Source of the DNA: Branchiostoma floridae
Taxonomy: Eukaryota > Chordata > Leptocardii > Amphioxiformes > Branchiostomatidae
Reading direction: 5' to 3'
DNA: 64,000 nt
Assembly (NCBI RefSeq): GCF_000003815.2
Contig: NW_023365738.1
Coordinates: forward strand, 62,001 to 126,000
The notes beneath the pieces were generated by a model, which saw only the letters and a list, made by a program, of their open reading frames with translations, was not told the DNA's origin and did not search any database. This document shows positions 220 to 47,300 of this stretch, one piece after another (positions within the stretch are counted from its first letter, which is position 1; each line of letters opens with the position of its first letter). A program made the translations under genes and the position numbers.

Positions 220-732
220 GACAATACGCCTCAAAGGTGTCTTCGAAACTCAGTTGTCCAGCGGTACAGTTGAGTTCGAACTCGGCAAACCCGATGTCAA
301 ATGTGTCCACGGTTGATGTTTCTCCGTCGATGGTCATGTCAAATTGTTGATTTGCAACCTTGTCTTCGATATCAAAGTAGATATCGTCCAGGGCAAAGAT
401 AAGGTCAGATTGCTCATTTTGGGTGACTTCTTCTGGGGCAAGCGAGCTGATGGCAACTACCATGAACTTAACCGCGAAGCCGTTTGCTGACCTTTCGGCC
501 TTTGGGCCGACGTTGCGCCCCCTTATTGCAGAGCTGTGTCTTGCTGACTCTCCACACTTCACTTCTACGTTTTGTAGTTGGGTTGTGATTGTTCCACCTG
601 GTTGGGAGGACGACAGTTGACTGAAGAGCTGTTGGAAGTTAGTGATGATGTCGACTATTCTGTTGGCACAGTTGGTTCCAGAGTAATAGTGGATCTCTCC
701 CATCATGTGGGGGCGTCCAGGACGGTGCCTCT
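220..732 (-). CDS. Gene L exon: C-terminal module Y (long form)
   Basis: Internal exon of a mosaic secreted protein, read leftwards. It is bounded by an acceptor (CACCACAG) at 733 and a GTGAGT donor at 214-219, and is open for all 513 bp. The first ~60 residues carry RPGRPH, a YYSGTNC loop and an IITNFQQLFSQL helix; these match the last exons of the two plus-strand paralogues at 32632 and 48056. About 100 further residues, rich in acid and beta-type sequence and ending FEAYC, are missing from those paralogues. I do not recognise the module by name. It follows a CCP-like exon in all three genes, so the two probably work as a unit. The gene continues beyond the left edge of the window. The exon is well supported; the function is unknown. 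Confidence 0.75.
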
Positions 733-2724
733 CTGTGGTGCATATGATTGCAGCTTTAATTATGTACATGCTCGTTGCTGCTTTAAAATGAGTGCAAATA
801 TGAACTGTCATTGCCCCAATCCTATCGTCACTTATACCCTTTACATGAAAGGTGTATTTTGTTTAACCGACGTCACAAAAAGTGTGAAAAAATTTGGTTA
901 ATATTTTATTCCCCAAACCTATAAAGGAAAAATGTATTTTGATGTGCTGATGTATTTCCCTACTTCATTCTCTTTTTTTCAATTTAGTCAATGTGTAACG
1001 ACAAACTATGTATATCCTTTTGGTACTAATAGGTGCATGCATCTTGTACAAAAGCTAGGCAAGATCAATTTATCAACAGGTTGGGTATATCTATAAGACA
1101 TTATTTTGCAGCTTCTGGCCTTATTGACCTTATCGGTACACCCTCCAGTTCTTCCGCGACAGGGCCCGAGGTATTGCGCGACAAAAAAGTGACGAAAGGC
1201 TTCCGAGGGTCTATGTTTGAGTTGGCATTTCTCATCATTTACGGAGAAATGACATTAAACGCTTACATGGCTGAAAAGCGCAGAAAAAGGTGTGTTTTAT
1301 GTGCAAATTGTGTTTCGGCCCGAATTACATTTCCGGATATTCATTTCCAGATACCCATACGCCTTCAATGTAAACAGGCCCGTGACCTAGATTGACTTCT
1401 GAAGCGCTGTGTTAAGCCAAGTTGTAATGTCGCGCGCCGTGGATGATAAATAAAAAAAACTCTAGTACTAGAATTTTCTTTATAATTGGCTGTATTACTC
1501 GATAGATTTTCTTCTTTCTGGCAGTATCAGTCGTGCTTGCCGGAAAAATCTTCTTCATCTGTTTTATCCAATGCGAAAATGCCCGATTTTGTGCATCATT
1601 TTTGACATGAAAATAATGTTTTTTCCCTATAATTTTTCAGAATGAGAGACGTTGAAGGATCGGAACTCAGTTGGTTTTGTAGCTGAAGGTATATCCTCTC
1701 ACCCCATGCAGTTATTTTGCTTCAGGATAATTCCCTGGAAGAGATGGTCGCTAGACTTGAGGGTGTGCCGCCTCCATTTGAAACCCCAAATAAAGTGGGG
1801 TGTGCCCACTTATAGGTCAGGCCATGTTGATTTAATCATATAGATGACATCCTCTGGAAACTCCAAAACTGATGCGAGCAAGCGAATAAAAAAAGTTTGG
1901 CCAAAAAAAAAAGTTGCCTTCAGTATGAAATCAAAGTGGACAGGAAGGTTGAACATAGGAGTAAACACACATAGTATGGTTTACGAACAGTTAGGTGTAA
2001 GGTCCAGTACATCATACGGGTGCAAAACATTTTTTTCTTCTTGGCCCAATTCGAAAAAAACAGACCTGAAAAAAATCAGAGGAACAGGTTTTGCCAATTA
2101 CAAAATGGACACAATGTGTCGGCAGAGTTTGGGGTCTTACCGGGCCAAGAAGACAATAAGAGCGAAGTCAAGTAGAGTTTATAGTCAATTGTACCAAGTT
2201 TCTATAGTCAAAGGTACAGAGGCAGTTAGCCTTTATTACAATGGGGATGGGATTTTAAATGCCAGCGGGAGTCCAATAATCCACCAAACAGATTCCTTTG
2301 TAGCAAAATTGACCAACTATCATTGTTTTGAGTATTGCCAGTTCTACAAGTTTCCACAGACAATCAGGTCCAGGTTCAGGTCCGGACCTGGAAATGATCC
2401 TCTGGCCTTGAATTTTCTGTACTGGTACCTCCCCCTACTAACAATAGATTTTATTCTTTCTGTAATTTCACACCTTACTCTTTGACTTAAGATTTATTTT
2501 GGTATTCTACGGCATTAGTTATCTGTTTTCTGATCCTGTTTTTCAATGTACGGAATATTTGTGCTCATTTTTACAGCTGCTTTGCACAATTTATTGTGTG
2601 GTTGAAAACCTTTTATTTTTGGAAACGGCCAAAAATTGGTGCGAGCGCGGATGTCATCAACATGGCCTCACAACTTTTACTTTGAGTAGAAAGTAGTACT
2701 TTTATTCATCAAAACTATACTGAC
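733..2724 (-). other. Intron of gene L, mostly featureless
   Basis: AT-rich intronic sequence between the CCP-like exon and module Y. The only notable content is a 213-codon plus-strand open frame at 1844-2485. It starts in lysine-rich, low-complexity sequence, matches no family I know and has no splice context, so I treat it as a chance or repeat-derived frame. A short GC-rich segment near 2365-2390 contains GTCCGGAC. Confidence 0.4.
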
Positions 2725-2943
2725 CTGTGCAGTCTGGCCAGGGACTACCCTGACTCTCCACAGGAGTAGAGTCAGCGAACCAGCCCCCATCGGCCCGGCA
2801 CGTGTACGCCTGGGCAGGTGCTATGGCAAACTCCTTGTTACCCTGACAGAAGACAGTACAGAACATGGCTCTTGTCATTTCATCCGTCACCGAGCAGGCT
2901 TTGCCGCCGTTCTGAGGAGGATCGTAATCCTCGCTGCAGGGTG
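2725..2943 (-). CDS. Gene L exon: six-cysteine CCP/Sushi-like module
   Basis: 219-bp exon with acceptor (TACACAG) above 2943 and a GTCAGT donor at 2719-2724. The frame gives [19 protein letters not shown], a YTCRADGGW segment and PWPDC. The proline-asparagine-glycine near the first cysteine, the C..G.W core and the terminal W.DC are the complement-control (Sushi) pattern. Six cysteines rather than four suggest an extra disulfide. Plus-strand copies of identical length are at 31346-31564 and 47251-47469. CCP modules are extracellular binding modules; the ligand is unknown. Confidence 0.85.
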
Positions 2944-3397
2944 CTGTGTAGAAAATGGAAAAAAGAAAAATGGAAAACGAAAGTTAATACATGTACTGAC
3001 AAATTTTGATCATTACACAATAAAAGTTTTGAGCGAGGTAAGTAAAAACTGTTATCTTTGTCTAGATAAATGACAAACTATACAATGATGTAAATCCTAG
3101 GATGACGCTATGAGATTTTATGAGCAGGCAAATATGCGGCCTTTGCTGATAATGAGACGCTGGGTTATCGTCAATTTTTCTGAAAATAAGATGCACTGAC
3201 ATTGAACAGAATTGTTTGTGAGTTCTACAACTCTATGAATTAAACCGAACCTTTGATATATGATTAATAAAAGAAATGTGTTTCATGAAAACAATTAAAA
3301 CCGTCACATGTGACTAACTGGTTAGAAATAAAAGAGGTTTCGACGACATTATTAAAAACAATCTTTAGCACAATGGGAACTCCATTATATGGTATCA

Positions 3398-5531
<2,134 letters not shown>

Positions 5532-5651
5532 CGACACAATCCTTTCCTTCGGACAGCTGGTACCCAAACCGGCAGGAACAATAGTAGCTGCCCACAGTGT
5601 TGGTACAGGCGTGGTCACACCCGCCGTTGTATGTCGAACACTCAATTATGT
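5532..5651 (-). CDS. Gene L exon: EGF-like domain
   Basis: 120-bp phase 1-1 exon, with a GTAAGT donor at 5526-5531 and a CAG acceptor at 5652-5654. It encodes [16 protein letters not shown], then [10 protein letters not shown] and [10 protein letters not shown]: six cysteines, with the consensus aromatic-cysteine turn of EGF_CA domains. The P1 and P3 equivalents (26315-26434, 44600-44719) have the same length but carry a seventh cysteine. Confidence 0.88.
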
Positions 5652-6889
5652 CTGAACAATTTGGAAGATAGAGTACCTAGTTATTGCCTTCACTGAAAAG
5701 TTTATGCATTCGGGTGGGCGTGTCTGTCAGTTTTTTTGTTAGTATATTTCTAATAGCATAAATCGAGACACTGAATATGACTCTTTAACCAGCTATCCAG
5801 ACTGGGCTTTTTGGGCACTCCTTAATACCTGCTCATTCGGCCCCTTCGTAATTTCGAAACGGCTTACTGTACGATAACCAAACTTTTAAGTGGGTGTTTT
5901 ATAATTGCAAGAACTATGAAATCATTAATAGAACTTAATGTATAACTTGAACGGTCTCTCAAAGAATTCCAGAGATAAATGACGAATGTTCTCTCGTTTT
6001 GTGTATTTTGTTGTCTTCCAAGTTAAAGTTATACTTTTATATTACGCAAAATCTAAATCATAAAATCAAGACTGTAAACAAATCCAATTTTGTTCACTCT
6101 ACAGTCGCTAAGCTTGAATCTAATAGTATCCATGCGTTCGGCTTGCTGTTTTTGGCGATGCCTCGGGGGCGAGCCAAATGGCATAGTATTGTGTACAGTT
6201 TGCAAGAATTCTAGGAATTGGACAGGAATGTGTCCGGACGTCCACAGGAATACTGGTCCACAGGAATGTTTGGAATTTAAGTCAGGGAGGCAGTGTTGGG
6301 CAGGGCTGCTGGAATTCCAGATGCTAGTAGAAAGTGGGCCATGACCCCTTTTTGCACCGCGACCATCGTACGACCCCTAAAAAAATCGCGGGATGATCGT
6401 GCTCGCAGAAACGTCGTCCGATCTATTTTCACCAAATGTGTCAGGGGTATAATGGAATTTAGTACCTAAGCTCAACCTAAAGTACAAGGGTCTAAAATAA
6501 TACAAAAACAGGCCCGAACCTGATGCCACAACAAACCTGTTGACACAACAAACCAGCAGCGACGTAAACATGTATTATGTAATTCTTAGTGTGCTACGCT
6601 ATATAATTTTGTGCGAGCTCATGCGTGAAGGTCTGCTGATAACCAGGTACTGGGCTAGGATTAAGATAAGATAAGAAAAGAAATTACAGCAATACTAATG
6701 GCTTTTAAAGTTAGACAAAATCAGAACAAAACAATTCAATGTGAATCGTCGGTCAAATGTGAAGTTGTATGTCGTAACTTAGTTTGCTTTAGAAGTAAAT
6801 ACAATAGGTCTTTACGCAAGCAAAAGATATACAAAACACAGGCTCCGTGAAACTAAATGACTAACGCTGTCGTAAACACATTCCGACCG

Positions 6890-6939
6890 TCAGGATTTTA
6901 CAGAAAAATGGCACGGATTGCTGGCACACTCGTTGATGT
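6890..6939 (-). pseudogene. Decayed EGF exon (relic 1)
   Basis: Reading leftwards, a TTAG acceptor is followed by DINECASNPC, the start of a calcium-binding EGF exon. The frame then loses the remaining cysteines and stops within about eight codons. No donor in phase is seen. It lies between the lectin and EGF exons of gene L, so the ancestral gene probably had more EGF repeats. Confidence 0.55.
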
Positions 6940-7211
6940 CTAACACAGAAAAAGATACATAAAAGTTAGGTGCCAGTTTGAACATAAATCTATGTTACAT
7001 GTATATCATAATTATTTTGGTAAGACGAAGTATGCCTTATGGATATGGAATGGAAAATACTATTCGTAAAATAGCATTAATTTTTTTGTTGAACGAGATT
7101 GATATTGAACTAGAAACAATTAGAATAGTTGGAATGCAAATATTTAATATTTTCAATCTTTAAAGATGGTTACAGCATTTAACTACAGGGCCTAACAGGG
7201 GTCTAAAATGT

Positions 7212-7335
7212 TTTCAGTCCCTTGAGCCAGACAGCTCAGACCAGGTACCCGGCCCGACAGATACAGTGGTAGCTACCCGGGGTGTTCACGCAGTTTTGGT
7301 GGCATTTTATATTCATGGGGGCCACGGGAGCATTA
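7212..7335 (-). pseudogene. Decayed EGF exon (relic 2)
   Basis: The minus strand reads KCHQNCVNTPGSYHC then ICRAGYLV followed by a stop. Downstream sequence still resembles an LSGSKDC ending in another frame. This is an EGF_CA exon broken by a nonsense or frameshift change. It resembles the relic at 34281-34398. Confidence 0.6.
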
Positions 7336-8205
7336 GTTTGTGTCTTGGTTTAGAATGACAGGTAGATTAGACTCATGTCCCAATCAGTTTTTCCCAAATC
7401 CATATATTAATGCTAATTGCTTTCAAGTATCCGAACCCCATTAGGTGTCGGGCGAGATTTTATGTTGAACGGGGTTGATAGTGAACTTTAGATAGTTGGA
7501 CAAAACATTTATGAAGGTCAGACAGGCAGGTTAACAATATTGAATGGCAATTCTCTTTAACATGACAAAATACGGAGATAGCCTCCTGGCATTTCGAATG
7601 ACACCAATCACTCTTCTTTATTGTTTCTAGAATGGATTGGCAGATCATGATGTTAGGCTATTCCCTATGTTAAGACAGCACCATAAAAATGTCCTTTATG
7701 TTGAAAAGCGGAGTCCTGTATGCTATGCTATCATCTGCTCATGGCTAATACGAGATGGGGGATCACCCGGCCTCCATCCGAGTGATTTGTAGTGAATCAC
7801 CAACTCCCGACAGAAAGATTTGGTACGGACGCGGAGTCATGATCAACAAGGCTCTACAACCCCTCATTATTAAAGCGGATGGGACGACTACGCATAGAGT
7901 TCTCCAGTAAATGGGCCTATGCTTTGCTGCAACATAAAGGACAGTAACAGTTCCTGGGACTTTCCAGATTTGCCACGTATGGGTGACATTTAATTTTCAT
8001 ACGATGCTTATGAGTTACTTTTTGAAGAAGAAGTGCATGTCATGCAAAACGCCGGTAGGTTATTTCCTATATAATTTCATCCAGTTGTGGAGATCGAATT
8101 GCCACTATAAAAAAATGTTGGACAATATGTTTTATAATAGGTGTACATGTACCTACAACGTATTTTTACATAATCTTTGTTACTATGGTGTGCATTGATA
8201 CTGAC

Positions 8206-8377
8206 CTTCGCACATGGAGGGAAAGAGTATCCATGAGGCCTCATCATAAAAGCCCCAAGTCCCACCAAGGTTTGCCAATACGCCCCTGTCCTGCCACATG
8301 ATATTCCATGGTCTGCCCCAGTGCCAGTTCCAACTAGAAGCAGGACTATCGTCAGACCAGTGCCATCTTCCAGAACT
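8206..8377 (-). CDS. Gene L exon: C-type lectin domain, second half
   Basis: 172-bp exon, with a TTTTCAG acceptor above 8377 and a GTCAGT donor at 8200-8205. It encodes SGRWHWSDDSP, SSWNWHWG, GGTWGFYDEASW and ends PSMCEG, the WSD..P..NW..G / G.W / CE pattern of a C-type lectin-like fold. It has a single cysteine (the last), so the usual second disulfide cannot form. The EPN/QPD sugar-binding tripeptide is RPW, and WND is replaced by TWGF. Calcium-dependent sugar binding is therefore doubtful (inference). It joins in frame to the exon at 9093-9289. Confidence 0.82.
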
Positions 8378-9092
8378 CTGAAAATGTTTTGAGTAAAAAT
8401 ATTCTAAAATAACCATACAGTGAACATTCATAGGGGTGGGGAATTCAATTTTATATAAATGTCAAGTAATCATGTAAATTTGATATCCTGCACACAAGAC
8501 ATCCGACAGTTATGGGGATTTCGGAATTTGTGACAGAAAAGAACATTCTTTGTCTTAGAAATTTAGATTTATTTTTTTTTTCCATAGCGCCGAATGTATA
8601 TCCTTTGTACAACAGGGCTTTGTAACATAGTCATGAGCTGCCATACGCGGTATACGATGTCTCAAGGTTGCGTTGGGTTTACTTAACTGTGGTAGATAGT
8701 CCGAAAACTGTCGATTTGTAAGTAACCTTTGTCATTATTCTTTTCAATTAATAACAAATTCCAAGATTACAGCAATAGTTCATTATATTCACTCTATTCT
8801 ACTCTCACTATTCTACATTCCTATATGCACATGATAAAATAGCCGGTCATTTCTGAGACTGTCTGGGTTAAACGGCTAGAATTCTGTTGTAGATGGAATC
8901 ATTTGACACAACAAGCCTCACAAAGCATGTCTCATTTGGGAAAAAACGACCAAAGGAGGGTATACAAGAAAAATGGGAAGAATCTTGCTGCAGTAAAGTT
9001 TGAAATGTGATACGTCTAGCTTTACACGTAGACTTTTAACCAATTTAAAACGCTGTTTCTAAGGGTTTGGCTTAAAAGTAACTAGAATGTAC

Positions 9093-9289
9093 CTTGCGGA
9101 GTCCAATCCAGAGGTGTGTGTATCCGCGGGCAACGTTGTTTACGAGGAAACGCTCAATTTCAGAAGTTTCCACGTCCGCAAGATGGCCACCCTCGCGCTG
9201 GCATCCCGAATTTGCGGCCCCGTACGTCAGGAAGTCATATCCGTTAAACCAGTACTCAACGCCATTGTGTGTTCTTACATCAGATCTAC
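9093..9289 (-). CDS. Gene L exon: C-type lectin domain, first half
   Basis: 197-bp exon, with a TTTAG acceptor above 9289 and a GTACAT donor at 9087-9092. It encodes NGVEYWFNGYDFLTYGAA, then GCQREGGHLADV, the helix ETSEIERFLVNN and LWIGLRK. These are the hallmark first-half motifs of a C-type lectin-like domain (cysteine-x-glycine-glycine-histidine-leucine-alanine, then WIGL). The exon ends on a complete codon that continues into 8206-8377. Confidence 0.85.
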
Positions 9290-25371: not shown

Positions 25372-28300
25372 ATGACTGGTACTTTCATCCTTGGGTTGAA
25401 GCTCGTTCTTTTGCTGTCCTGGCAGTGTGTCCATTGCGACCAAGCTCTCAAGGGAGCCGGAGAGATATGCCAAGCGGGTAAGTTCAGTGACACACAATGT
25501 AATGCTCGCAGAAATCGGCCCACTTGTAAATGTTCTACTTTCTGAGCTAGTCTAGTAGATCTCATCACAGTAGTTGATTGCAAACGTCACATTTTGACAA
25601 TAAAAGTGTGTAGAACCACAAGATTTTCGTCAACAGCATTTTTGCTTAAAATTCAAAATACGTTATCCAACTTTATTTTATTACCGAAGTGTCCTTTTCA
25701 TGTGTAGAAAAACATAGTCTTCATTTATCACGTTCTACTATTATGACTACACTACGCTTCGGTCAAGTATTAGGCCAAAGAATGATTTTCTTTGTTTCAG
25801 ACATCGACTATTTTCTTACAATTAGAACCCCATACTACAAAAATTACTCTTTCAAAACATCATATGCGAAATACAATAATAATAAGCCATAAATGTATGG
25901 CTCTTCTCTCGCACAAAAGCTTCTTCATACCAAATTTCCGGTCATCTCAGCAGTAACATAGAGAGTACCAAAACATCCAAACAGACACATTAATTCATAG
26001 TTAGGATAAACGCATTTTGATTCATAGTTAGGAAATCCTGTTCTTCAACTAGATCTCTTTTACATATCAATTCACATCTGGGATATAAAGCCCCTCTCCA
26101 ACAAGACCCCTTCAGTGTCATTGACGAAAACTAACAGATGCTAGTTGAAACCTCTGACCGTTTCCAAAACCATATCCAGTTGCTTGAGTATCTGCTTTAT
26201 GGCGTATCTTATTACCTGGATATCTAACCTGCATCGACGTAGACACACATACACTAGACATAGCCTACTCGGCAAAAATTGATAGGTATCAACCCTCTCT
26301 TTCTAAATGTTTAGACATCGACGAGTGTTCCTGTAACAACGGTGGATGTGAACATTACTGCCACAACACCCATGGCAGCTACTTCTGTTACTGCCAGCCA
26401 GGGTACCAGCTGTCAGGGACATCGCATTGTGTCGGTGAGTAAAATTCTATACATATGCTATTATATAGCAGAACACAGGATATGAAAACACAAATATCAT
26501 GTTGATCTCTAGCTCCTTACTGAGCTAAAACTGCAGCGAGATCACTTTCCTTTTTACATGCATGTTGTTCACATAGAAACACATACAAGCAAGCTATAGC
26601 TAGCCTAGTCAGCATTATCCGCTGGTCGGCGTTGGGGTGCTTTTGTCTGCCCATCTGATTATCCTAGCCTCTACCAGGCTCCGTGGATCGGTGGTCTAAT
26701 TGTAGATATTGGACAAATATAGAGTGGCGTCGGGCATGGCGTAACTGGCAGAACGTTCGGTTTGGAATCTAAATCTAAATCTAGAGGTCATGAGTTAGAT
26801 CCCCGCTGTACCGTCGAGGTAGTGCCCTTGGGAAAGGCACTTTACATTATACAAGACCTTCCTCACTTCACCCAGGTGTAAAAATGACTTCAGTTGGGAA
26901 GGTAAATGACTACCTTTACCTTCCGTCTGTATTGTGTACGTGGCACTGTTAATATTTGCAAAAACTTGAGTGCAGTGCCACATTTTCCTCGTCTTTCTAA
27001 AAGCAAATAGAAAAAAATAGAGAGAGAGAGTCTATAGTACGTAGAGTGTTTTTACTAGCCGGCCGACTTCTTTAGCGTACTATTGACTCTATATTTGTTC
27101 AATTTCTACAATTAGACCACCGATCCACGGAGCCTGGTAGACTATGATAAGCCGGCCTTTCGAGATTTCGATGCTAATGCTTGTAGCTGGACTTGTGAGT
27201 TTATGCCAACGCGATGAAACGCAGCCCGACCCCGTAAAAATTCCCCCGACCTGCGCTTATTACCTGGACGGGCCGGCTACCCCTACAGCGCCCATTGGTA
27301 TGGTCATCAGCTGGCTAAAGCAAGCAGGCACAGACAACATAACCATCCTGGCGAAGAAAAAAAAATACCACCCTGTCGGATAAATATTGAGCTATATCGT
27401 GGATTTTATAATGTACATGTACAAACAAGTGGACACACACAAACACACGTGCATACATAGTCATTAACCATACAAGCAGCGTTCCCGCCAGGCATACGTC
27501 TTTACGTCTTTGGACGCATCTTTTTCTGGAAAGACGCACTCGGCTCAGCTGAATGCGTCCATAAAAAATTCCGAAAGAAAGGCTGACCTGTACCACCAGT
27601 GTACAAAATGTATCTGGAATCTTTTAAAAAAATCTGTCTTTATAAGAAGGAATCCTACCTTTACAATTTATACTTCAAATTCTTCACTTTCCGGTCATCC
27701 CAGTAGTCTGAGCATGGGGCGGAGGGCGGCACGTTTTACAACTAGCGAATCCATGTGCAACACACCCTGCCACGCGCCAGTCTGAGCCGTCCGTTGCGCA
27801 ATGTAATTTTTTGTAGTCCGTGAAATACATCTGACAGTCAGCATTCTTTAACACTCGAAGAAATCTTATGCAGATTTTATATTCTGATATTAACATAATA
27901 CTAACTTGTCCTCATTTTCACGTATTTGTTAAAGATTTGTGGGCAATACAAGTATTGAACGAACAAACTGTTCTGAGCGAGTGCTGCACATCTTAACAAA
28001 AGTTCTCACGCTGTGGGCAGATGATTGGCAGTCGGTATTTTTGACAACAGGCCGCCGGCGCCATGCAGTCCAGATTGGCCACCAGGTCCAAATCCAATCA
28101 ACTTAATAACCAATCAGCATTCGATAAATGTAATGTTACACTCTGTCATTGGTCACCGGGAAAAAAAGTTGCCGACTATTAGCGCACGTGATGTTGGTAG
28201 CCGCCCCTGTCGTCTGGAAACTTGTGTTTCTTCCCTAGCTGCTAACAATTTACTATTAAAGTTTCCCCATTTATCCAAGTTAAAAAAACGTGCGCGGTAA

Positions 28301-32825: not shown

Positions 32826-32943
32826 CAGGGCCATGCGAGGCAAGGTTCATTTTCCTTATCATTGTTTTACAGGGGGGAGGGCAAGGAGGACATCAACACG
32901 TACGTGACACTCAGGCATGTAGCAAATTATATGATATATATAT

Positions 32944-33173: not shown

Positions 33174-33234
33174 TTCTTGATTAAAAGAATCTATTAACTG
33201 TGTGCATATGTGACTAATCAATCTTTTAAACGAC

Positions 33235-33380
33235 AGAGCAAGGACGTTATGTCATGTCTTTGTCAGAGGAAGCTCATTCGATTCGGTCGCTACGCAATAC
33301 CAAATTCGTAGTGACCGATTGGAATTCTAAGCTTTTTCTGACAGTGAAACCAGTACAAACTTCGGAACATTTCAATACGT
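33235..33380 (+). pseudogene. Relic of a LINE reverse-transcriptase C-terminus in P1's last intron
   Basis: Degenerate sequence matching P3 48822-48995, where the translation is clearer. In P1 it carries stops and frameshifts. Presence in both copies dates it before the duplication. Confidence 0.55.
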
Positions 33381-33566
33381 TGCTTGGTTATATCACTATT
33401 TTTTGTCATGAATAAATACATACATAATCTGGTGAAATAAATTTAGAATTAATTTTCATTTTGGACTGCTTTTTTATGTGTCCATTATCTGCCCGTTCTG
33501 ACCTGATGACGAAAATGATACGTGTTGTGTTGTTTTCATTAATAATCTTATTTTGATATATTACAG

Positions 33567-33760
33567 AAACCAACAAACAAACAGGGCGGACGAACCCGAA
33601 ACCCACATCGACACACGAGAAAAGCACCTATCTGCAACTTAGCTCATCTTTCAGCACTAGTACAAAGACGCTACGCTACGAAGGCAACAACAAGAAACTG
33701 CAACTGCTCGCTTGCTTATTTTCCCAAGAAACAGAAATAAAGAGCTTAACTTCAAAATCT
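33567..33760 (+). other. P1 3' UTR exon with polyadenylation signal
   Basis: Acceptor ATATTACAG at 33558-33566, then a block strongly similar to P2 38430-38625. Shared landmarks: CACGAGAAAAGCACCTATCT, CTTAGCTCATCTTTCAGCAC and an AATAAA at 33736-33741. It is downstream of the TGA stop, so I call it 3' UTR. One frame is open through it in both copies. Confidence 0.65.
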
Positions 33761-34280
33761 CAAATGTTCTCGTGTTGTCATTGTTAAATATCTGATTACT
33801 TTAAAACTGGTACTCAACGTGTATTAGTCTTTAAGCCCCAAAATGATAATTCTGCACCCAACAATTATGTACAAACGTGTAACTACATATGAAATGTAGT
33901 TAAAGCTGTTTGAGCAAGTTTAAAGCATTGTCCCGAGGATGCAGTTTCTAGAGTGCTTATACGCCAAAAAGCAATTACTTGAGCAACAGGATATGATTTC
34001 GGAAACAGTCAGATCTACAATCTTTCGCCAGTGACTCTGAGATCCGTTAACAAGCTAGTTTTATACCCTAACTATGAATTGATATGCAAAGAAGGTAAAT
34101 ACACGTTTTTTAATAGTCCAATAGGGAGCAAGGGTAAGAAAAGTTAAGGTTAACGTTTCTGATTGTTTATCCAGTTGGTTGAGTAACTGTTTTTGGAGTA
34201 TCCTAGTACCTGGATGTCTAACCTTCGTTGACGTATCAACTAAATACCATCTCAGAGATGCACTCACTAAAGCAGTCCTT

Positions 34281-34398
34281 TGAACCAGATAAATGATGCC
34301 CTGATCGACAGGTGCATTGGTAGCTACCCACAGTGTTCACACAGTTGTCACGGGCTGCAATCTCCATTGTCCGTGGAGCATTCGTTAATGTCTGTATT
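34281..34398 (-). pseudogene. Decayed EGF exon between P1 and P2, opposite orientation
   Basis: The minus strand reads DINECSTDNGDC, then a frameshift, then DNCVNTVGSYQC, TCRSGHHLSGSKDC: an EGF_CA exon with one reading-frame break. Its orientation is opposite to P1-P3 and the same as gene L. Just to its left, 34160-34245 resembles P1 intron 1 sequence in plus orientation, which suggests a local rearrangement. Confidence 0.7.
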
Positions 34399-34949
34399 GG
34401 ACGAAATAATTTCCCATTGACAGTTCAGAAAAGAAAAACTATGCATCTCAAGAAATCAGCAACCAGAGATTACATTTGAGAGCTACAAAATGTGTGTGGT
34501 TTTGATATAGCTATTTCGTGTAATTGCTCATTGTGATATAGTAGTGGCGTGGTCATACATCTGGCCCTCATAGAGTTTGTTGCAGATACCTTTGTATTAC
34601 TAAAGTAGTACGTTCTGTTGCCAGCAAGCATGACTCGACATTCCTTTGCAATATAGCATTCGTCCAAACTAACTAACTAAGCAAGACTCTTGCAGTTTTT
34701 GGTGCTCTAACTCTGCGTTAACTTTGTAAACACTTAATTAACAGTCCTACTTGTTGCAACATTGTCAAGTTGTCAAACTACGTAATATGAAACGGATAGA
34801 ATTCTTGAATACAAAGCAATCAAAGAATTAATATCTTTTGATCATATTGAAATAAAATGCATCTACGTCCTGGATTTCACACATGTTGCCATCGCAAATA
34901 TTACATAGAATTTAAAAGTTACAATTTCAAATAGTGTTTTGCTTTTATC

Positions 34950-36010
34950 AAACTATAGTAGGATATGCAATGATGTGATATGGTCCAGATGTTTGCTTAT
35001 TGAGAAATGTCATCGGATATTTCATACATTTTGGATATCAAGTATATGGCTACTGCCGTCTTGGTATCCAATAAACATACATGTTTTTCAAACTAGAATG
35101 CGTGATGATATGTCAGGTCCCAGCAGTTTGTAATACAAAAGATCACAAAATAATGTTTTTATAACATGACGTTTCATCCTATATGTTAGGATACGGCTAT
35201 TCCCATCCTAGTATGCAATAAAATTCAACCTTTGTGCATTGTTTACAAACCAATCGTGGACATGTCGACATATGACATGATCAGGATATTTGCAATAAAA
35301 AATGTTACAAATTGTTTTATAATCAGTAGTTACGTCCTGGGTATGAAGTATGGGGCCCTTGCCGTCTTTGAATTCAATAAAATCCAACCTTTGAGCGGTG
35401 TTTACAAACCTATTGTGGACATATAGCCTTATGACACAATCAGGACAATTGCAATTTACAAACGCGGTTACAAATTGTTTTAAAATCTATACCTACGTCC
35501 TGGGTATCAAGTATGGGCACTTGTCGTCTTTGTATTCCTTAAAATCTTATTTATTACATGACATTTTGTCCTATATGTTAGCATGCAGCCACCTACCATC
35601 CTAGTATGCAATAACATACAACCTTTGCGCATTGTTTAAAAACCAATTGTGGACATATGACATGGTCAAGATGTTTGCAATGCAAAAATGTATTACTAAC
35701 AAATTGTTTTATAATCTGTATACCTACGTCCTGGGTATCAAGTATGGGGCCCTTGCAATAAGATTTCATCTTTTAGCAATGTTTGCTAACCTATCATGGA
35801 ATTTGTAACGATATTGCAGGATCCAGATATTTGTAATACAAAAAAGGTTACAAATGTTTTTAGTTTTTATAATAATATGTATCTATGTCTTAACTCTTGA
35901 GTAATATAAAATTGAATTTTCAGTGGTGTTTACAATCCTATTGCAGAATGTGTAATGACAAGGTCTTTCATATATTTGGAATAGAAAAGGTTACGCAATG
36001 TTTTTTTTCT
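34950..36010 (+). repeat. Degenerate tandem array B, ~160-bp units, upstream of P2
   Basis: Same unit as array A, with GTTTACAAACC, CAGGATGTTTGCAATACAAAA-type and TACGTCCTGGGTATCAAGTATGG variants repeated about six times. It is more degenerate than arrays A and C. Confidence 0.8.
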
Positions 36011-37013
36011 TTACAATACTGGCTTGCGTTCTGAATGTCAGTTTTGATAAATTGGTTTAATTTTGCGAATGAAGTAGAGTGGCTTTTACCTTCAATATCC
36101 TGAAAATCTTGAAATTTTGTAATTAGTCCCTGTAAGGAGACGATGTAACAGCTTGACGAACACGTGGATACTTATAGTCAAATAGTCAAAACATATTAAA
36201 CATAAGGTAATAAGGATAGCGGTGACATTACATATGTCTTTGACGCATATATTCCGTACACATAAGTCTGAGTGTTCTAAAACTTCCAGAAGCTTGGTAA
36301 GAGCCAGAGGAGACTGTCAGCAGCAAAATCTGCAAGCAGGTGAGTTGAGCAATCCAATTGTAATAGCTTCGTAAAATGCATGTTCCTACTTTATGTGGTT
36401 TAACCGTACTGCTATATAGTACAGTACTGTTACAATCATATGAGGTTTACTGCGTACATGGAGAAATGTTCGCCACGGCCGCTTCACCGCGAGCTTAAAA
36501 CTACCGCCAACAGTTTTTTCATGGCAGTAAGAGACTACCGTGCATGGTGCTTCTGCGAACTTCAAACCACTGAAAACAGTCCTTTTTCCTGCTACCGCGA
36601 AATTAAGATACCGCGATTTATTTTATTTTCAGTATACAAGCTGAATAAAATACAAGCAGATGGAAGTAGAAATAAATTTCTCATCCCTTAGCGAAATTTG
36701 ATCGAAACACTTTGACTTATACCTAATGAAAATTGTTCGCCTTTTTTGTTATAGTTACTGTATTTGTTCATAGTTACTGTATTTGCTCATTTAGCTAATA
36801 AAAGGACAACTCTAAAGATGAGTGAGTATCAATATGTTTCAGCTTTTTTTTTAAAATTTGTCCATAATGTTACCCAGGTGTAATTCTAAATCTCATATTT
36901 GATTCGTAGTGAAATCAAGGGAGAGCCTAGCACTACATTGCAATGTGACTCCTATGTACCGATAATAATGTTATGCCTTACAATATTTTCACCCTAGTGC
37001 ACAGATCACAAAC

Positions 37014-37930
37014 ATGACAGGTACTCGCATCCTTGGGTTGACGCTCGTGTATCTGTTGGTCGGACAGGGTGTGCATTGTGGCCTGCCAAGATCCAGAGGA
37101 GAGAAATACCTAGCGGGTGAGCTGGAAAACAAATAGTGTAATTGTTACGGCTTTCAGACATACATACATCCACATACATATTCATACTTGATTCTAACAA
37201 GTTGAAGCATTCACATAGTTTTGCTTCCATAGTGTTCTATTTTTCATCAGTTCAATAGTTTCAGACGGGAAGGATATTTGATCTGATGTTGGTTTGTCTG
37301 TAAACTGCAGTACAGTCGAAAACTAGTCGTATCCAGGATCAGTGGACCAAGGAAGTCTTAAGTTTTGTTTTACATATACTTACGTTATACATATGTAGAA
37401 GGGGTACTGGTTCACGATTTTCAACTTTGAATACCAAGGTTGTGTCATGCCGGAAAAGGGGCGAAAACTAAATTCAACGACAAACTCTCTTTCCCGACAA
37501 TTATAAAGCCTTAGCTAAAGTCAACGTTAAAGAAAATTGGGAACGAGTGCGTACAGGTGCCCTTCAAAAAGAAAAAAAAATATAAAACCAGCCCTGATAA
37601 GAAGTCTGCAAAGGAGGCTACTATTGTGCTAGAAAATCTTTCTACTGGGGCAATGTCTCGAAGATAATGACATACTTCATGGGATAGGTAGACGAAAGAG
37701 AATTGGGCTTCGTAACAATAAAATCTACAATCGTCCTGATTTTTTCTACCACAGGTAAGCTCTGCGAGAACCTGCCAGACGGCACCTTCCGCCCCCACCC
37801 GTACGACTGCTCCATGTACGTGCAGTGTTACCAAACGGGACTTGACATGGTGTTCGGCTGTCCCCCGGGAACCCGCTGGAGCCAGGAACTACTGACCTGT
37901 GCCAGCTCGGATCTGGTCATTTGTGACTAG
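37014..37930 (+). CDS. P2: small secreted chitin-binding (CBM14) protein, 92 aa
   Basis: Two coding exons. 37014-37116 encodes a signal peptide (MTGTRILGLTLVYLLVGQG) closely related to that of P1 and P3. 37755-37930 encodes one peritrophin-A/CBM14 domain: LCENLPDGTFRPHPYDC, MYVQC, FGCPPGTRW, LLTC, VICD, stop TAG. All six conserved cysteines are present, with the aromatic positions typical of chitin contact. The joint is phase 1 (GTGAGC donor, CCACAG acceptor). A GTAGGT donor follows the stop by five bases and leads to a 3' UTR exon at 38430. The family binds chitin extracellularly. The domain is unlike its neighbours, while both gene ends match them. Confidence 0.88.
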
Positions 37931-38429
37931 TCAGGGTAGGTGTGCGAAACAGTGTTTCTGTAATTTTTGCAAAGAGGTAAAACTTTATGCTCTTGTAGTA
38001 ACAAGATTTTTAAGCTCTTCAAATTTCTATTGCGTAAGAAACATGCGCTTTCACAATGAATTATTGCCAAAGCAGCGTCAAGGATACTGTACATATAACA
38101 ATTCAACATTTTCCAAAATCTTTAGATAGTTTAAATAGTAAGCAAGACCCGTTTAAATAGACAATAGTCATTTTACAGCAGGATGTTCTAGAACTTTAAA
38201 CATTAGATTTGCCATATGTCAAAATCTGAAAATCGTTGTTTCCTAATATCGTTTTTTTTTCTCATGACTGAATATTTGCATAACCTGACGAAGTGAAATC
38301 AATTTAATAATCTTCTTTCATTGTTCTAGACTCATTTTTCTTGACTCCATCATCTGCCTGTTATGACATGATGGTGATAAATACGTGTTGTGTTGTTTTC
38401 ATTAATGATATTGTTTTGATTTATTACAG

Positions 38430-38625
38430 AGACTAACAGACAAACAATACGGACGAACCCAAAACCCAGATGGACGCACGAGAAAAGCACCTATCTGCAT
38501 CTTAGCTCATCTTTCAGCACTAGTACAAAGATGCAACGCTACAAAGGCAACCACAAGAAACTGCTACAGCTCGCTTGCTTGTTTCCCCGTCAAATGCTAA
38601 TAAAGGGCTTAACTTCAAAATCTCA
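38430..38625 (+). other. P2 3' UTR exon with polyadenylation signal
   Basis: Acceptor TTATTACAG ends at 38429. The exon closely matches P1 33567-33760, and AATAAA is at 38599-38604. It follows the CBM14 stop codon. This shared 3' end is the second half of the evidence that P2 is a domain-swapped relative of P1. Confidence 0.65.
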
Positions 38626-39599
38626 AATCTTTTCCTCGTGTCATCATTGTTTTACTATTATGTTTGACGCTATCAGTTCAAAACAGGTAATAAACGTGTA
38701 TTAGCCTAGAAATGACAGTTCTGCATTGAACTACGTATACGTGTATTTAAAGCTGATTGAGCAAACTCAAAGTACTATTCCCCACCGTTTACTTTAGTTT
38801 GCCTACTTAACCCTCTACCTTTATGGAGAATTTGGTAATTAAACATCTTTAACCATGGGCACTTAAATATATTTCATTCGGGTTTCGAGACCTCGGTCTT
38901 ATCTCAGCTATACCACTATGTTGTTGATCATGAGATTGGCTGTCTTACGATTGGATTTTCAAATTCAGATTGTATATACTGCAAATCATACATGATTCAG
39001 AACGTATCATCGTTAGGATGTTACAACAAATTGAACACTAATTGACAGAAAATTGAAGGGACACAAGCCATGTTTCTAATAATACCAAGTTGTCATCAAA
39101 TAATAACATGACCGTGAATCTCATGAATCTACAAGCTTTATTGACTTGAAACCGTTATGCAATTATGTTTGATACAAATGATTTTCATGTCTCACAAGGG
39201 ATGAAAGGAAAAGTAAATGAGTATACTAAGTACCGAAAAGATTTAATTGAATAAAATAAAAATATGATATTCTTCTTTAGCTAAATGGCATTAGTTTCAA
39301 AAATATAGAATAATAGTCTTAATTATGAGTTTTGGTGATAAATGATTATGATTCTTTTAATCTTGGTTATGATTCTTAATCGATGGTTTGTCGTATAGAA
39401 TACGATTTTATTTTGTCGAAGTGATCAATGCATTCTCTGGGGAGGCAAGAGAAAAATCATTTTATTAAGACACCTGTTAAAGAGAGGAATATCAAAGAGG
39501 CAAAAATTATGCTAAGCATCATATCATAAATTACGTTGCCTGACATGAAATTGATAGAATTCTTGAACACGAAGCAACTAAAGGATTGAATATCTTTTA

Positions 39600-40490
39600 A
39601 TCATTTTCTCCAAACTATTGTAGAATGCATGGTGATATGTCAGGATCCAGAAGTTTGCAATACAAAAGATTATGAATGTTTTTTTTTATAACATGACATT
39701 TCATCCTGTATGTTAGCATACAGCTACTACCATCTTAGTATGCAATATATTTCAACCTTTGAGCATTGTTTACAAATCTATTGTAGACATGTAGCCATAT
39801 CACATAGTCAGGATGTTTGAAATACGAAAGGTTAAAAAATGTTTTATAATCTGTACCTACGTCCTGGGTATCCTTGCCGTCGTTGAATTCAATAAAACCT
39901 AATCTTTGGGCAGTGTTTACAAACCTATTGTGGAATTTGTAACGATATAACAGATCCAGATGTTTGTAATACAAAAGGTTACGAATGCTTTTAAGATAAT
40001 ATGTACCTGTCTTGACTTTTGGGTACGACTTGGTATACCTTGGTATCCTATTAAACAATAGAATTCGACCATTAAGCGGTATCTACAAACATATTGTGTA
40101 ATGTGTAATTATCATAATGGTGTTACAGGTTCCAGATACTTGCAATACAAAAGGTAACAAATGGTTTTATGACATTTCCCTATCTCCCGGGTATCAAGAA
40201 TGGGACGCTTCTAGCGTTTCTTGTGTTCAATAAAATCTAACCTTTAAGCGTTATTTACAAACGTGTTGTGGAACTTGTACCAATATGACAGAATCCAGAT
40301 GTTTGCAATACAAAAATGTTACAAATGTTATAATAATACGTACCTACGTCTTGACTCTTGAGTATCAAGTGTTGCCGTCCCGGCATCCTATTTCATATTG
40401 GCATTCTACCTTTCAGCAGTGTTTGCAAACCTCTTCTAGAATGTGTAACGATATGAAAAGATACTTGAGATGTTTGAAATAGAAAATATT
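39600..40490 (+). repeat. Degenerate tandem array C, ~160-bp units, upstream of P3
   Basis: Same unit as arrays A and B. Its last units (40285-40490) are nearly identical to 24531-24735 of array A, and the match continues into the P3 5' UTR exon. The 65-codon open frames in both copies are artefacts of this identity. Confidence 0.85.
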
Positions 40491-41343: not shown

Positions 41344-44300
41344 ATGACTGGCACTTTCATCCTTGGGTTGAAGCTTGTCCTTTTGCTGTCCTGGCAGTGT
41401 GTCTATTGCGACCATGTTCTCAAGGGAGCCGGAGAGATATGCCAAGCGGGTAAGTTCAGCAACATACAATACTTAAACCATGTAATGCTTACAGAATTCA
41501 GTCCGATTGTAAATGTTCTGAGCTAGTCTAGTAGATTTTTTATTACGATCTCATCGCAGTAATTGATGGTAAACGTGGTATTTTGATGATTTTTTTTAGT
41601 CGACAGCCTATTGAACATACGCGTTTTTTGCTAACGTTTCAAATACGTTATCCATAGCCTGATTAAATCTCGCTTATAGCAGCCCGCCAAACATCCGCAG
41701 GCCCCCTATCAGCTTGATAAAGAATAGTCCTTAGTCAAGGGAACTGGGTTTTCCATATATGGATAATGTATGTAATTGTCATGAGCCCACCAGGGCCTGG
41801 CTTTTGGTTGCTATGGACTGGGTTGGGTTGCTATCTGCTATCTGTAGTTGATCTCTCTGATCTGTGCCACATGTACTGATGGTAGGAACAACCAACTATG
41901 TATGCATAGTTCTACTATTATAAAATGATGTCTTTTTTTAGCAACCGCTACACCGAAGAACTAATGTGAAAATTACCATTCAATACATAGAATAGCATTC
42001 CTTTAGATAAATGTGCCTGTGGCATAACTTTTGATGTGCCCAATCATTATAGGAGGGACATATCATGGTTCTGAGAAGTTTGACCAAGGAGGTTGACAGG
42101 CTTCAAGTGTCACAACATCATGGCGGGCAAGGACTGCAACTTTGAATTCAGACAAGTGAACAGAGAGGAAGTGTACCAACTCCTACTGGCCCTGCCAGAA
42201 GGAAAAGCAGCTGGACTGGATAACATGGACAATAAGCTACTGAGAATTGCAGCAGAGCATGTTTCTACTCCCCTCTGTTACATTATTAATTTATCATTTG
42301 TAACCTGAGTCTATCCAAGTGNNNNNNNNNNNNNNNNNNNNNNNNNNNNNNNNNNNNNNNNNNNNNNNNNNNNNNNNNNNNNNNNNNNNNNNNNNNNNNN
42401 NNNNNNNNNNNNNNNNNNNNNACTAGTAAGATAATGGAACGTATTGTTTGCAAACAAGTGTCAGACTATTTCTCGAAGAATTCACTTATGTCTGAGAATC
42501 AGCATGCATACAGGAAGAACCATTCAACCTGTACTGCACTGCTGCACATGGTAGATGATTGGTACCACAGTATAGATCAGGGGAAACTGGTAGGCGCCAT
42601 CTTCCTCGATTTCTCTGCAGCTTTCGACCTTGTTGATCACAACTGTCTACTTTCGAAATTAGCATGTTATGGCTTTGATGAATCTACCACCAAATGGATG
42701 GCAAGTTACCTGACGGGAAGAGAACAATGTGTTCACATCAATGGAACAAACTCTTCCTTTAAGGAACTGCCTTGCGGTGTGCCCCAGGGGAGCCGTTTAG
42801 GGCCCCTTCTTTTTACCATTTATACTAATGATCTACCGCTTGCCATCACTCAGGCCACAGCGGATATGTATGCTGATGACACATCAGCCTACATATGCGC
42901 TCCTTCTATTGAAACTATCTCACATAATCTACAGACAGAGGTAAACAACATCTGTAGCTGGGTTAAAGTGAACCGGCTTTTCTTGAACACTTCAAAAACA
43001 AAATGTATTGTACTGGGGAGCAAGCCCAAAATGTCTGCTAAACCCAAACTCACATTAACTGCAAATGGTAAGGTTATCGAACAGGTCTCAGAGGTAAAAC
43101 TACTTGGTTCGACAGTAGATGAGTGCCTTACCTGGAATACTCACACAAAATTAACATCTAAGAAAATGGCTAGATCACTGGGGATGATCAAAAGATGCGC
43201 ATACCTTATGGATCAAACATTGTTAAAAATTGTAATAGAATGCCTTGTACTATCACACATCGATTATTGCAGCCCAGTTTGGTCATGCACAACTAAAACT
43301 AACATAAACCTTCTGCAACGAATGCAGAACAAGGCAACTCGTCTGTTTCAGTCGAAGCCACAGTGGAAACCTGTGCACACGAGATTGTCAATAAACACCA
43401 TGACAACATTTAAAAGGATAACACTCACAAACGAACCTATTTGTATCAGTAGGCAACTGCGTTCGGTCAACAACTTGCATAGTTACAGAACCCGTTTTGC
43501 TGCTAAACAATCTTTTCTGTTAGAGAAACCTAGAACTAACGCACTGATGAAGTGTTTCATGTACAGGGCTGTCAGAGTGTGGAATAACCTTCCAATTGTC
43601 ATGCAATCCACACAATCCCTGAGAGTGTTTAAGGATGGTTTGCACAAATACTTCCACCAGTAGTTACAAGCACTGTGCGACAGGATTGTCAATTTTTAAA
43701 TTATGTATATTGTAAATATGTTATTGATTTAGATGTGTTTGTGACTTGTCTAGTTGCCAACCATGTTTGTATAATGTATTGTCTCTGTGAATGAATACCA
43801 GGAAGACTAGCGGTGGACCCTAGGGTCCACCGCTAATGGTTATTCTAATAAAGTTTCAAAGTTTCAAAGTTTCACAACAACATGGCATTTTTGTGAACCA
43901 ACTGTTTTTCTGCAGTTGTCTACCCATATAGATTTTAAAAAAAATGTACTTCGTTGCTGGCCACATAAAATCTCACCACCAGGCAAAATAATAGTTCCAG
44001 GAAAGTCTGCGCTCCAAGATTCCTTCAAGGTTCTTGAAATCCCCACAAGATGTTGTTTTCCCAACACAAACATGCCTCTGCCCCCATGGGTCCTTCACAG
44101 ACAATGGGAGAGGCAACTAGCCCGCCCACCGTCTGGGTGGTGGAGACATGCTAATATACCGGTTTCCACGGTAATGGGGGCTTGACCAAAATCCTGGCTT
44201 GCCATTGGTGTTGGTATTTTCTACAACAGTTCCCCCAGCTTATAGCTAGTGGAGCACAAACTCCGCGGGGAGGGGCCAGTTAGAGACCTGGACAGCGGGA

Positions 44301-47300
44301 GTTTGTGTTACACAGACTACGTTATCCAACTTTATTTTATTACCGGAGTGCCATTTTCATGTGTAGGATATAAAAACCCTCTCCGACAAGATCTCTTCAG
44401 TGCCATTGTCTAAAACTAGTGGATGCTAAATGAAACGTCTGACCGTTTCCAAAATCTTATCCAGTTGCATGAGTATCTGCTTTATGGCGCATCTTACTAC
44501 CTGGATGTCTAACCTGCATCGACGTAGACACACATACACTAGACATAGCCTACTCGGCAAAAATTGATAGGTATCAATCCTCTCTTTTTAAATGTTTAGA
44601 CATCGACGAGTGTTCCTGTAACAACGGTGGTTGTGACCATTACTGCCACAACACCCATGGCAGCTACTTCTGTTACTGCCGGCCAGGGTATCAGCTGTCG
44701 GGGACATCGCATTGTGTCGGTGAGTAGAGTAAAATTCTATGCATATGCTAGTATAGCAGAACACAAGATATAAAATTCAAATCATTATTCACATGACGGA
44801 TGTCACGTTGATATTTGGCCCTTAAGTGAGCTAAAACTGGATAAAAATCACCTTCCTTTTTACATGTACGTAGTTCACATAGAAACGCATAAACAAAAAG
44901 GCAGGCACCGAAAACATGTTCTTGTTAAAGAAAACGTATCACCCTGTCGGATAAAGATTGAGCTATATCCGCAAGTTTACAATGTACAAACAAGTGGACA
45001 CGCACAAACACAGATATATACCACGCTCCTTCACAGCGTCGTAATAAATTGTCTTGTTCCACTGAATATGCGTGTGCGAGTCTTTTATGCAATTCACTTT
45101 TTGGCCGCATGAGGGCTACTAGCGGTTTGTTCGCAAAGACAGCCCTGGGACAGAGAACGTATTTTTCTGCGCGAAGCATGCTGGGAGGGCGGTAGTATCC
45201 TGGGGACGTGAATGTTGTGTGGCCAAACTCGCTGCCGTAGCAGGGGATCCGCCAGCGATTCGGCATGCAAATTGATGGTTGTAGTATGTAGGTCAGGGCC
45301 TAAAACTTTAAGATTTTTTTCTTGGAAAAATGGGTAGAAATTCTGGCAGTTTTGAGGTCAATGTGACTGGGGAGGGTTTCTACTTTCTGATTATGGCCAA
45401 AAAGCTGAGTTTTTGTGGTTATCAGGGGATATGAAGTTGGGACTATTTCCTTGTTGTGTAAGGCTCTGTTCCCTTGGTGGTTATGCGTTTGAGGGGGTGA
45501 TAGGGTTTGGGGGTATTTTTCTGCAAATTATGCCGTATGATTTCTAATGAAAGTGGTATTTTATCACAGCTGAGATGATGGGCTTTCATATGAGGGTAAG
45601 TTTGTATGCCAGTAATGTCAGAAAGGTGAGTTATTGGCACTGTCTTTCTGTGCCTTTATGTACACTTTTCAATGTGCCAGGGCTTGGCTGGCGTCTCCCA
45701 TAGCAAACCCCCTTCCGTGACATAAGTCCCCTCTCGGCAATCTAGAAGGGTAATCTAACACCCTCGCAGCGCCACCAAATTAGGTACATTTTAAAGTTCC
45801 CTTTGATATAACGTATCACCATTGTGGCAACATTTTACCCCCGAAATAGTAAACTTTCGTCTTGTTTTCGCCTCGGTAACTGTGGAAAATACTAGCTAAC
45901 TAGGGTACAGTCTCACGTTGTATAGAGACGCACACAAGAGTCACACAACTTACGATTTGCTAAGATAATTGAGACAAACACAAAACAAAAGAAAATGACA
46001 GCTGTGGATTCCATATAGTTTTATTTGTGTATTGGTTGAGCCCACAATCTAAACCTATGGCTTCTTCGCGGCGCTGGGTACGAGCGTGGGTATATATAAG
46101 TCTTTATCCATACAAGTGGGATCTGTACCTCTTTTTCTAACATGTCTTTTTCTAACATGTATCATATTATGTTTGTGTCTTATAGATATTAAGCTTAGGC
46201 CTACTCGGTCTGGGCGCATAAAGCACCACACACGTTGATAAAATCTTACTCATGCATTCTCATGCATTCATCCATTTGATCATTCATAATTTTTCCCAAA
46301 AATTGTTTTCCCATCTCTCATTCTCACAAATATGTATCTTTAGTACCTGTGATAATAGCTATGGAATCCGATGTAGACCACTGCTTCCCAGGAGCCTGCG
46401 AAAACGGCGGCACCTGTATCTATGGCCTCGACACCTTCACCTGCATGTGCCAACCTGGCTTCAAGGGAGAGAGATGCCAAACGGGTGAGTTCAACAACAC
46501 TTAAAAATTCATCATGTAATGCTTACGGCTTTCAGTCCACCAGTCAATGGTATAATTGCTGGGACAACTAGTAACGTTACTACAAAAACAAATGATGAAT
46601 AAACAAAGAGCGTGGTAGACTGTAGCCGTGAAGACATTGTCCAACTTTCAAGAACAGAGTGTTAAAGCTTTATAATCATTCTTCCTGTTTTACCGCATGC
46701 AGCCCATGGGACATACATATAGTTTTGTTACCTTTAAATACACTTTATACAACTTCATGCCGTTGCATGAGTGTCTTTTTCATACTTGATTAACTCTTTG
46801 CTATCCACGTCATAGCATTTGCGACTTAATTTTTCGGTCCAATATCGTTGCAACGAATTGTTTTTGTTTGTTTGTTTTAATTTGACGGTTCCTCGGCCAG
46901 ACATTGCAAAAATGCCAATTTCATAATTTTCACTTTGTCAGTAGTTCAACCAATCGGTATAGCATATATGTAATAGAAAAAAATCACATATCACGACACT
47001 CGTCGGAAAATATAGATAAAGAACCAGTTATATCGTCTAATTTTATCATATTAAACAATTATCTAGAAGCAGATCCTGCATAGCATAATGAGCCGGCCGG
47101 CATCCGGGTGTGCATTTTTACATTTTTATACAAATATACGAGTGGCTTCTAAATGAATTATCTTGCCAAAGGTAAAAGGTATGCCAGCAGCAAAAAGAAG
47201 AGAATTCATAAAACATAACGCATAACAACATTATTGTTTTTTACCTATAGCTCCCTGCAGTGAAGATTACGATCCACCCATGAATGGCGCCGTTGCCTGT

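Follow-up and report, generated by a model that had tools for sequence, protein, structure and literature searches.

In the mammalian REST/WFDC/SPINT genes, conserved first and last exons enclose a phase-1 middle exon for unrelated proteins, and the last exon is untranslated, as described in the excerpted part of PMC3209443. Members of this locus include semenogelin, elafin/PI3 and SPINT3-5 (excerpts of PMC3209443 and PMC7556508). Composite REST genes, which take promoter and signal exon from one gene and the body from another, appear in the excerpts of PMC7556508. For lancelets, the fastest exon shuffling in animals has been reported, with a 1-1 phase bias (excerpts of PMC4284660), and a critique lays this rate to gene-prediction errors (excerpts of PMC4967905). 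According to the excerpted account in PMC2632668, the amphioxus genome holds more than 250 CBD open reading frames, mostly of the CBM_14 type, and a modelled transcript has a foreign signal peptide directly joined to a CBD termination exon. In the same account, amphioxus VCBPs are secreted, VCBPs 1 and 3 have a CBM_14-type domain, and all VCBP exons splice in frame 0. No description of the gene set treated here was found among the best matches in the open-licence literature.

We analysed a 64-kb stretch of Branchiostoma floridae DNA, called the window throughout, with the neighbouring genes P1, P2 and P3 and a further gene, P0 (Table 1). P2 is an intact small plus-strand gene of four exons: a 5'UTR exon, a signal-peptide exon, a CBM14 exon that includes the stop codon and a 3'UTR-only exon. 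In layout it is like the REST/WFDC/SPINT genes as the excerpts present them, with a signal exon, a phase-1 body exon that ends in a stop codon and a few 3' untranslated bases, and a 3'UTR-only last exon with a poly-A signal. Also as in REST-type genes, outer exons are conserved between neighbours with unrelated middles; P2 shares the first ones with both P1 and P3 and the last with P1 alone. P2 departs from those genes by an additional 5'UTR exon and a repeat array, by bodies that are CBM14 or EGF-rich instead of WFDC, Kunitz or semenogelin, and by a last exon that just two of the three genes share. The likeness is thus one of layout, and we claim neither homology nor membership. The snake Kunitz/waprin case was set aside as a parallel, since the excerpts of PMC2242803 describe a fusion rather than a body swap.

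Like the shuffling reported for lancelets, the locus features phase-1 domain exons, promiscuous extracellular domains and transposon-rich surroundings. Unlike in the excerpted reports, the case is built on homology of non-coding DNA and not on compared gene predictions, and the CBM14 exon of P2 departs from the 1-1 pattern given there, running from phase 1 to a stop codon. P2 is also unlike the VCBPs, in which two V-type Ig domains precede the CBD: Pfam gave CBM_14 alone for P2, with no V domains, and its joint is of phase 1, in contrast to the frame 0 of the excerpted VCBP account. The case is one of a gene assembled from the parts of others, a kind known from mammals and described for lancelets in the excerpts cited above.

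Table 1. Features of the P1, P2, P3 and P0 genes and their surroundings, in positions of the 64-kb window
Feature	Position	Strand	Remarks
P0: C-type lectin domain, EGF, EGF, 'CCP'-like and Y exons	220..9286	-	limits of 5' part approximate
P1 signal-peptide CDS, comparator	25372..25477	+	
Junction in P1 last intron	33372..33378	+	P3-like on left, P2-like on right
P1 3'UTR exon, comparator	33567..33757	+	AATAAA 33736-33741; end inferred
EGF exon relic with frameshift, P0-like, located between P1 and P2	34268..34391	-	63% identical over 144 columns to P0 EGF exon
P2 upstream array, 5 units of ~150 bp	35216..36038	+	nhmmer, E 1e-3; TRF periods 148 and 159
P2 5'UTR exon	36290..36339	+	start putative; aligned with P1 (end 25029) and P3 (end 40783), donor context alike
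P2 signal-peptide exon	36998..37116	+	ATG 37014, phase-1 donor 37117
End of P2 signal exon, donor and first 41 intron nt, corresponding to EGF-2 type exon tail with intron	37092..37157	+	tail alignment test
P2 CBM14 exon	37755..37930	+	phase-1 entry, TAG 37928-37930, donor 37936 or 37940
P2 3'UTR-only exon	38430..38620	+	AATAAA 38599-38604; cleavage site putative
P3 signal-peptide CDS, comparator	41344..41449	+	
P3 second EGF exon, whose end and next intron match signal-exon ends	46344..46484	+	tail test, self-BLAST

N is absent from 32523 to 42321, and P2 therefore lies inside one ungapped stretch. The border of its 5'UTR exon at 36339 reads CAG/GTGAGT (donor gtgagt at 36340), and the signal exon, with its coding sequence at 37014-37116, has an acceptor 16 nt upstream of the ATG and a second AG 9 nt upstream. 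The product has 92 residues, of which residues 38-91 match Pfam CBM_14 (PF01607) over profile positions 1-53 of 53 (E 4.3e-10; 40 bits versus a cut-off of 22.1), so that the single CBM14 domain named in the first-pass annotation is confirmed over the full profile. The six cysteines of the CBM14 exon are spaced 14-5-10-12-7, a pattern that we take to fit the CBM14 / peritrophin-A family. GC content is 60% in this exon versus 31-38% in the P2 introns. In PDB, sequence search ranked 8in3 first, a 25 kDa polyphenol-binding protein of three domains (2.1e-10), and not tachycitin; a single-sequence structure model of the CBM14 exon had a low-confidence mean pLDDT of 55.6. Small, secreted and with six cysteines, P2 presumably resembles peritrophin domains and CBM14 proteins of one domain, for example tachycitin. 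We expect its product to be secreted, with a signal peptide of ~22 residues and then ~70 residues with a single CBM14 (peritrophin-A type) domain, and family membership predicts that it should bind chitin. Ciona chitin-binding VCBPs bind chitin-rich gut mucus (excerpts of PMC4757023); by comparison, we might guess that P2 acts in such mucus.

Origin of the CBM14 body exon in place by gain of splice sites, the route suggested for REST genes, was rejected, as the whole CBM14 profile is matched. Terminal inverted repeats flanking this exon were not found, save one 12-nt palindrome. By tblastn, the P2 introns held no relics of EGF, 'CCP' or Y exons apart from an EGF-2 tail, and the short nucleotide matches in them fit no exon, the best being 19/19 from 37602-37620 to 16579 (E 8e-4). 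The acceptor of the CBM14 exon (37750-37760) reads ...TTTTTTCTACCACAG/GTAAGC and also resembles the consensus of a recursive splice site; re-splicing from this putative site would omit the CBM14 exon.

All joints had been described as phase 1. This holds for every coding joint of P1 and P3 and for the joint between signal and CBM14 exons, but P2 has just this one coding joint. Its CBM14 exon, entered in phase 1 and ended by a stop codon, is not symmetric 1-1; the 3' joint lies between untranslated sequences and is therefore without phase, and the phase argument covers one joint. In the EGF-EGF-CCP-Y order proposed for P1 and P3, the 'CCP' label found no profile support: Pfam gave no match for 3/3 exon-5 peptides and a PDB profile search gave none, and the name stands for a likeness by eye.

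The EGF block also occurs in P0, for which Pfam recognised Lectin_C (2.8e-12) and EGF_CA (1.9e-14) and which matches P1/P3 exons in nucleotide sequence at 550-730, 2723-2955, 3418-3555 and 5518-5674. Its domain order resembles that of selectins, and its Y exon is open for 107 residues beyond the P1/P3 stop. A tblastn search of P0, a gene in which no first exon was located, did not find a P1-type signal exon; the best row (E 0.034) fell in another frame of the lectin exon. Decayed EGF pieces were seen in the P0 region at 7304-7245 and near 6940. The EGF relic between P1 and P2 has 4 gap positions relative to the P0 EGF exon and falls into two frames in tblastn; beside it, 34168-34235 and 33959-34013 match, in opposite orientations, the intron that precedes the P1 EGF exon. 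No source of the CBM14 exon was found within the 64-kb window, and for CBM14 relics in P1 and P3 tblastn gave chance-level rows alone (E 0.069 and worse). A CBM14-like row in P0 (8415-8441, minus strand; 7/9 residues, E 0.005) was taken as chance because a stop codon lies two codons before it and no more CBM14 residues are seen by eye.

Several other elements were observed in the window. A non-LTR retrotransposon at 51411-57447 has two long open frames: the first matches a GDSL esterase and, with a score under its cut-off, a PHD finger, and the second has endonuclease and reverse transcriptase. A reverse transcriptase piece (42430-43670) sits in P3, within the intron that separates the signal exon from the first EGF exon. 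At 9691-9960, a metazoan SRP RNA match scored 73.8 versus a gathering score of 70 and possibly is an SRP-derived repeat; the stretch 9379-9726 beside it is repeated, inverted, at 16824-17165.

We compared the ends of P2 with those of its neighbours by BLAST of 34800-38800 against the window itself. The upstream repeats of P2 match those of P1 (E 7e-147) and P3 (9e-108), its 5'UTR exon with donor (36315-36390) matches both genes (3e-12 and 2e-9), and so does its signal-peptide exon (36953-37121; 5e-22 and 3e-19). The array, the 5'UTR exon with its donor, the acceptor before the ATG and the signal peptide, claimed beforehand as common to the three genes, were thus recovered, with splice sites and open reading frames as described; the same is true of the claim that P2 carries a module of a different class behind this array, leader and signal exon at a phase-1 junction. 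With an nhmmer model built from 4 units and a threshold of E 1e-3, 7 array units were counted upstream of P1, 5 of P2 and 6 of P3, all on the plus strand and none elsewhere in the 64 kb. The array may evolve in concert, and hence its identity gives no date. Units of the arrays at 23682-24772, 35216-36038 and 39600-40526 carry TGTTTAC, 8 on the plus and 0 on the minus strand, a putative FOX-like site. Around the 5'UTR exon, identity is 140/203 for P1-P2 and 171/204 for P1-P3, and around the signal exon, flanks included, it is 127/184 and 181/191. Signal-exon dS, calculated from just 22 codons with 16.5 synonymous sites, is 0.63 for P1-P2, 0.97 for P3-P2 and 0.23 for P1-P3, with a P1-P2 dN of 0.21. 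Judged by these alignments, array, 5'UTR exon and signal exon of P2 are paralogous to those of P1 and P3, and from the upstream homology we expect that P2 would share their promoter type and be expressed where P1 and P3 are.

The signal exon itself holds a trace of an EGF gene. In the self-BLAST, the end of the P3 signal exon aligned with the EGF-2 end (41431-41504 against 46466-46538, E 6e-10), and a short nucleotide row placed P2 37137-37157 against 46515-46535. For a tail test, 120-base exon tails were aligned with 500 dinucleotide shuffles as null; the z values, here as for the P1 junction below, describe fit and carry no correction for choice, as the tests were chosen after the sequence had been viewed. 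Against the EGF-2 tails of P3, P0 and P1, respectively, z was 12.0, 11.0 and 9.4 for the P2 signal tail, 22.2, 9.8 and 21.2 for that of P3, and 17.7, 6.9 and 11.8 for that of P1 (0/500 shuffles each). Signal tails did not match EGF-1 and 'CCP' tails, with a top z of 1.9 over 15 comparisons and at most 0.9 for P2. When the exon part and six intron bases were cut, the P2 intron alone gave z 5.1 with the P3 EGF-2 (0/500 shuffles), and more weakly z 3.1 with that of P1 (reached by 6/500) and z 2.5 with that of P0 (11/500). The signal exon is thus best read as a signal peptide fused to the tail of an EGF exon, a fusion that arose within an EGF gene before P1, P2 and P3 split. As P2 carries this tail, its front would therefore come from an EGF gene, and this sets a direction, in which a front end from an EGF gene was set ahead of a CBM14 exon.

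At the other end of P2, the 3'UTR exon with flanks (38234-38707) matches P1 alone (E 1e-105; 365/475 identical), in keeping with the shared, AATAAA-bearing exon of the first-pass annotation, and no 3'UTR exon of the P1/P2 type was found downstream of the last coding exon of P3 (48244-51400). The exon alone is 86% identical to P1 33567-33766 (172/200), its flanks 74% and 73%. A 55-nt core (38477-38531; 33614-33668) has one P1/P2 mismatch and is a possible mRNA control element. The phase-1 frame of this exon is stop-free in P1 and P2, as it is in 2.3% of 5000 single-base shuffles made from the P2 exon; an alternative coding exon was nevertheless rejected, as the substitutions are not biased to third positions (7/11/9) and no stop codon closes the frame ahead of the poly-A site.

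The last intron of P1 is a mosaic. By local alignment with 200 dinucleotide shuffles, its part left of 33372 is homologous to P3 48824-48971 (z 46) and its part right of 33378 to P2 38234-38429 (z 30). Cross-homology is absent at the junction, with z -1.1 for P1 left against P2 left, -0.3 for P1 right against P3 right and 0.6 for P3 right against P2 left. The junction was read from a single assembly, in which an N gap lies 850 bp to the left of it. A short palindromic element, common to the last introns of P1 (33234-33372) and P3 (48833-48971), ends near it; the P1 stretch was considered as a LINE tail and rejected, as the alignment consists of this element with homologous flanks in P1 and P3. 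The claim that EGF-gene ends surround a chitin-binding middle thus stands at the 5' end by virtue of the EGF-2 tail and is doubtful at the 3' end in view of the junction in P1. New in this analysis are the trace of an EGF-2 exon at the end of the signal exon and the mosaic structure of P1's last intron. It is more likely that the 3' end originally belonged to the CBM14 gene and was handed on to P1 afterwards than that an EGF gene supplied it to P2. Sharing between P1 and P2 here looks later than at the front, as a separate exchange, because the 3' identities given above stand against signal-exon dS values of 0.63 and 0.97.

We hence favour, with a probability of roughly 0.55, a history in which the front end of an EGF gene was joined to a CBM14 exon with its own 3'UTR and a 3' end of the P2 lineage later made P1. 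An EGF gene of the P1/P3 family would have supplied array, leader exon and phase-1 signal exon. The CBM14 exon would then have been joined through a break in the intron downstream of the signal exon, with phase 1 preserving the frame. Since the signal-exon donor and the CBM14 acceptor are both of phase 1, phase-1 bodies can be inserted here without frame loss, and since translation stops within the body exon and the last exon is all 3'UTR, no phase constrains the 3' joint. Most likely, the CBM14 exon arrived with its own 3'UTR exon, so that one joint would have made P2. A later break in the last intron of the EGF gene, joined to the 3' end of the P2 lineage, would have produced P1. The simplest history thus needs two single joints. 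What the sequence itself shows is the front-end homology, the EGF tail of the signal exon, the one phase-1 coding joint, the intact CBM14 exon and the mosaic in P1; intron breaks, the order of events and the origin of the 3'UTR exon are what we infer from an unrooted set.

A less probable, though still sizeable, alternative is that the whole EGF-EGF-'CCP'-Y gene, 3'UTR included, was duplicated and that in P2 the stretch from intron 2 to the last intron was replaced by the CBM14 exon. This would agree with both ends of P2 being common with P1, with the 5' direction set by the EGF tail, and with the EGF block standing in three genes of the window and CBM14 in one. P3, however, has no such 3'UTR exon: with P1 as the ancestral form, the right break of P2 and the loss in P3 would be two separate events that happened to hit a ~730-bp intron within ~6 bp of each other. 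The palindromic element nearby could be a break hotspot, which softens this objection; a single junction in P1 would still explain the mosaic better than two coincident breaks. It is doubtful, but conceivable, that the region as a whole works as a re-usable secretion chassis, with array, leader and signal exon as one unit and the 3'UTR exon as a second.

We regard it as improbable that the front end came from a CBM14 gene and that P1 and P3 arose when the EGF-EGF-'CCP'-Y block was attached downstream of it. The block indeed stands in P0 behind a lectin domain, where the search for such a signal exon was negative; yet the EGF-2 tail in the P2 signal exon needs an EGF gene before the CBM14 joint. 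It is the tail test that turns the odds to the EGF gene as the earlier partner. Very little weight goes to an assembly artefact, in which diverged haplotypes or paralogues were joined to give the P1 junction and the missing 3'UTR exon of P3. There are N gaps at 32377-32522 and 42322-42421, and lancelet genomes are highly polymorphic (excerpts of PMC4284660), but P2 itself lies in ungapped sequence, and at the junction P1 is 18% divergent from P3 on the one side and 26% from P2 on the other, which is too much for alleles of those copies. Least credible of all, despite the tandem array on the 5' side and the repeat-rich window, are shared ends that are ordinary dispersed repeats, or a CBM14 exon of an unrelated gene lying there by chance, as the array unit occurs at three genes only, a check for the shared ends at unrelated genes found none within 64 kb, the homology runs in order over donor, acceptor, start codon and signal peptide and at the 3' end over last acceptor and AATAAA, and the 3'UTR exon is better conserved than its flanks.

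In the favoured reading, domain replacement is documented in non-coding DNA, that is, in upstream array, leader, intron start and 3'UTR. The replacement is thereby independent of gene prediction, the point disputed between PMC4284660 and PMC4967905 in their excerpted parts. The REST/WFDC/SPINT design of constant outer exons and a replaceable middle is present in an unrelated gene set, and the findings suggest that the 5' end of a gene and its 3' end can be replaced independently, one event for each. If the region were indeed a secretion chassis, bodies and 3' ends would be swapped independently, and new secreted proteins would inherit the transcription of one gene and the mRNA control of another.
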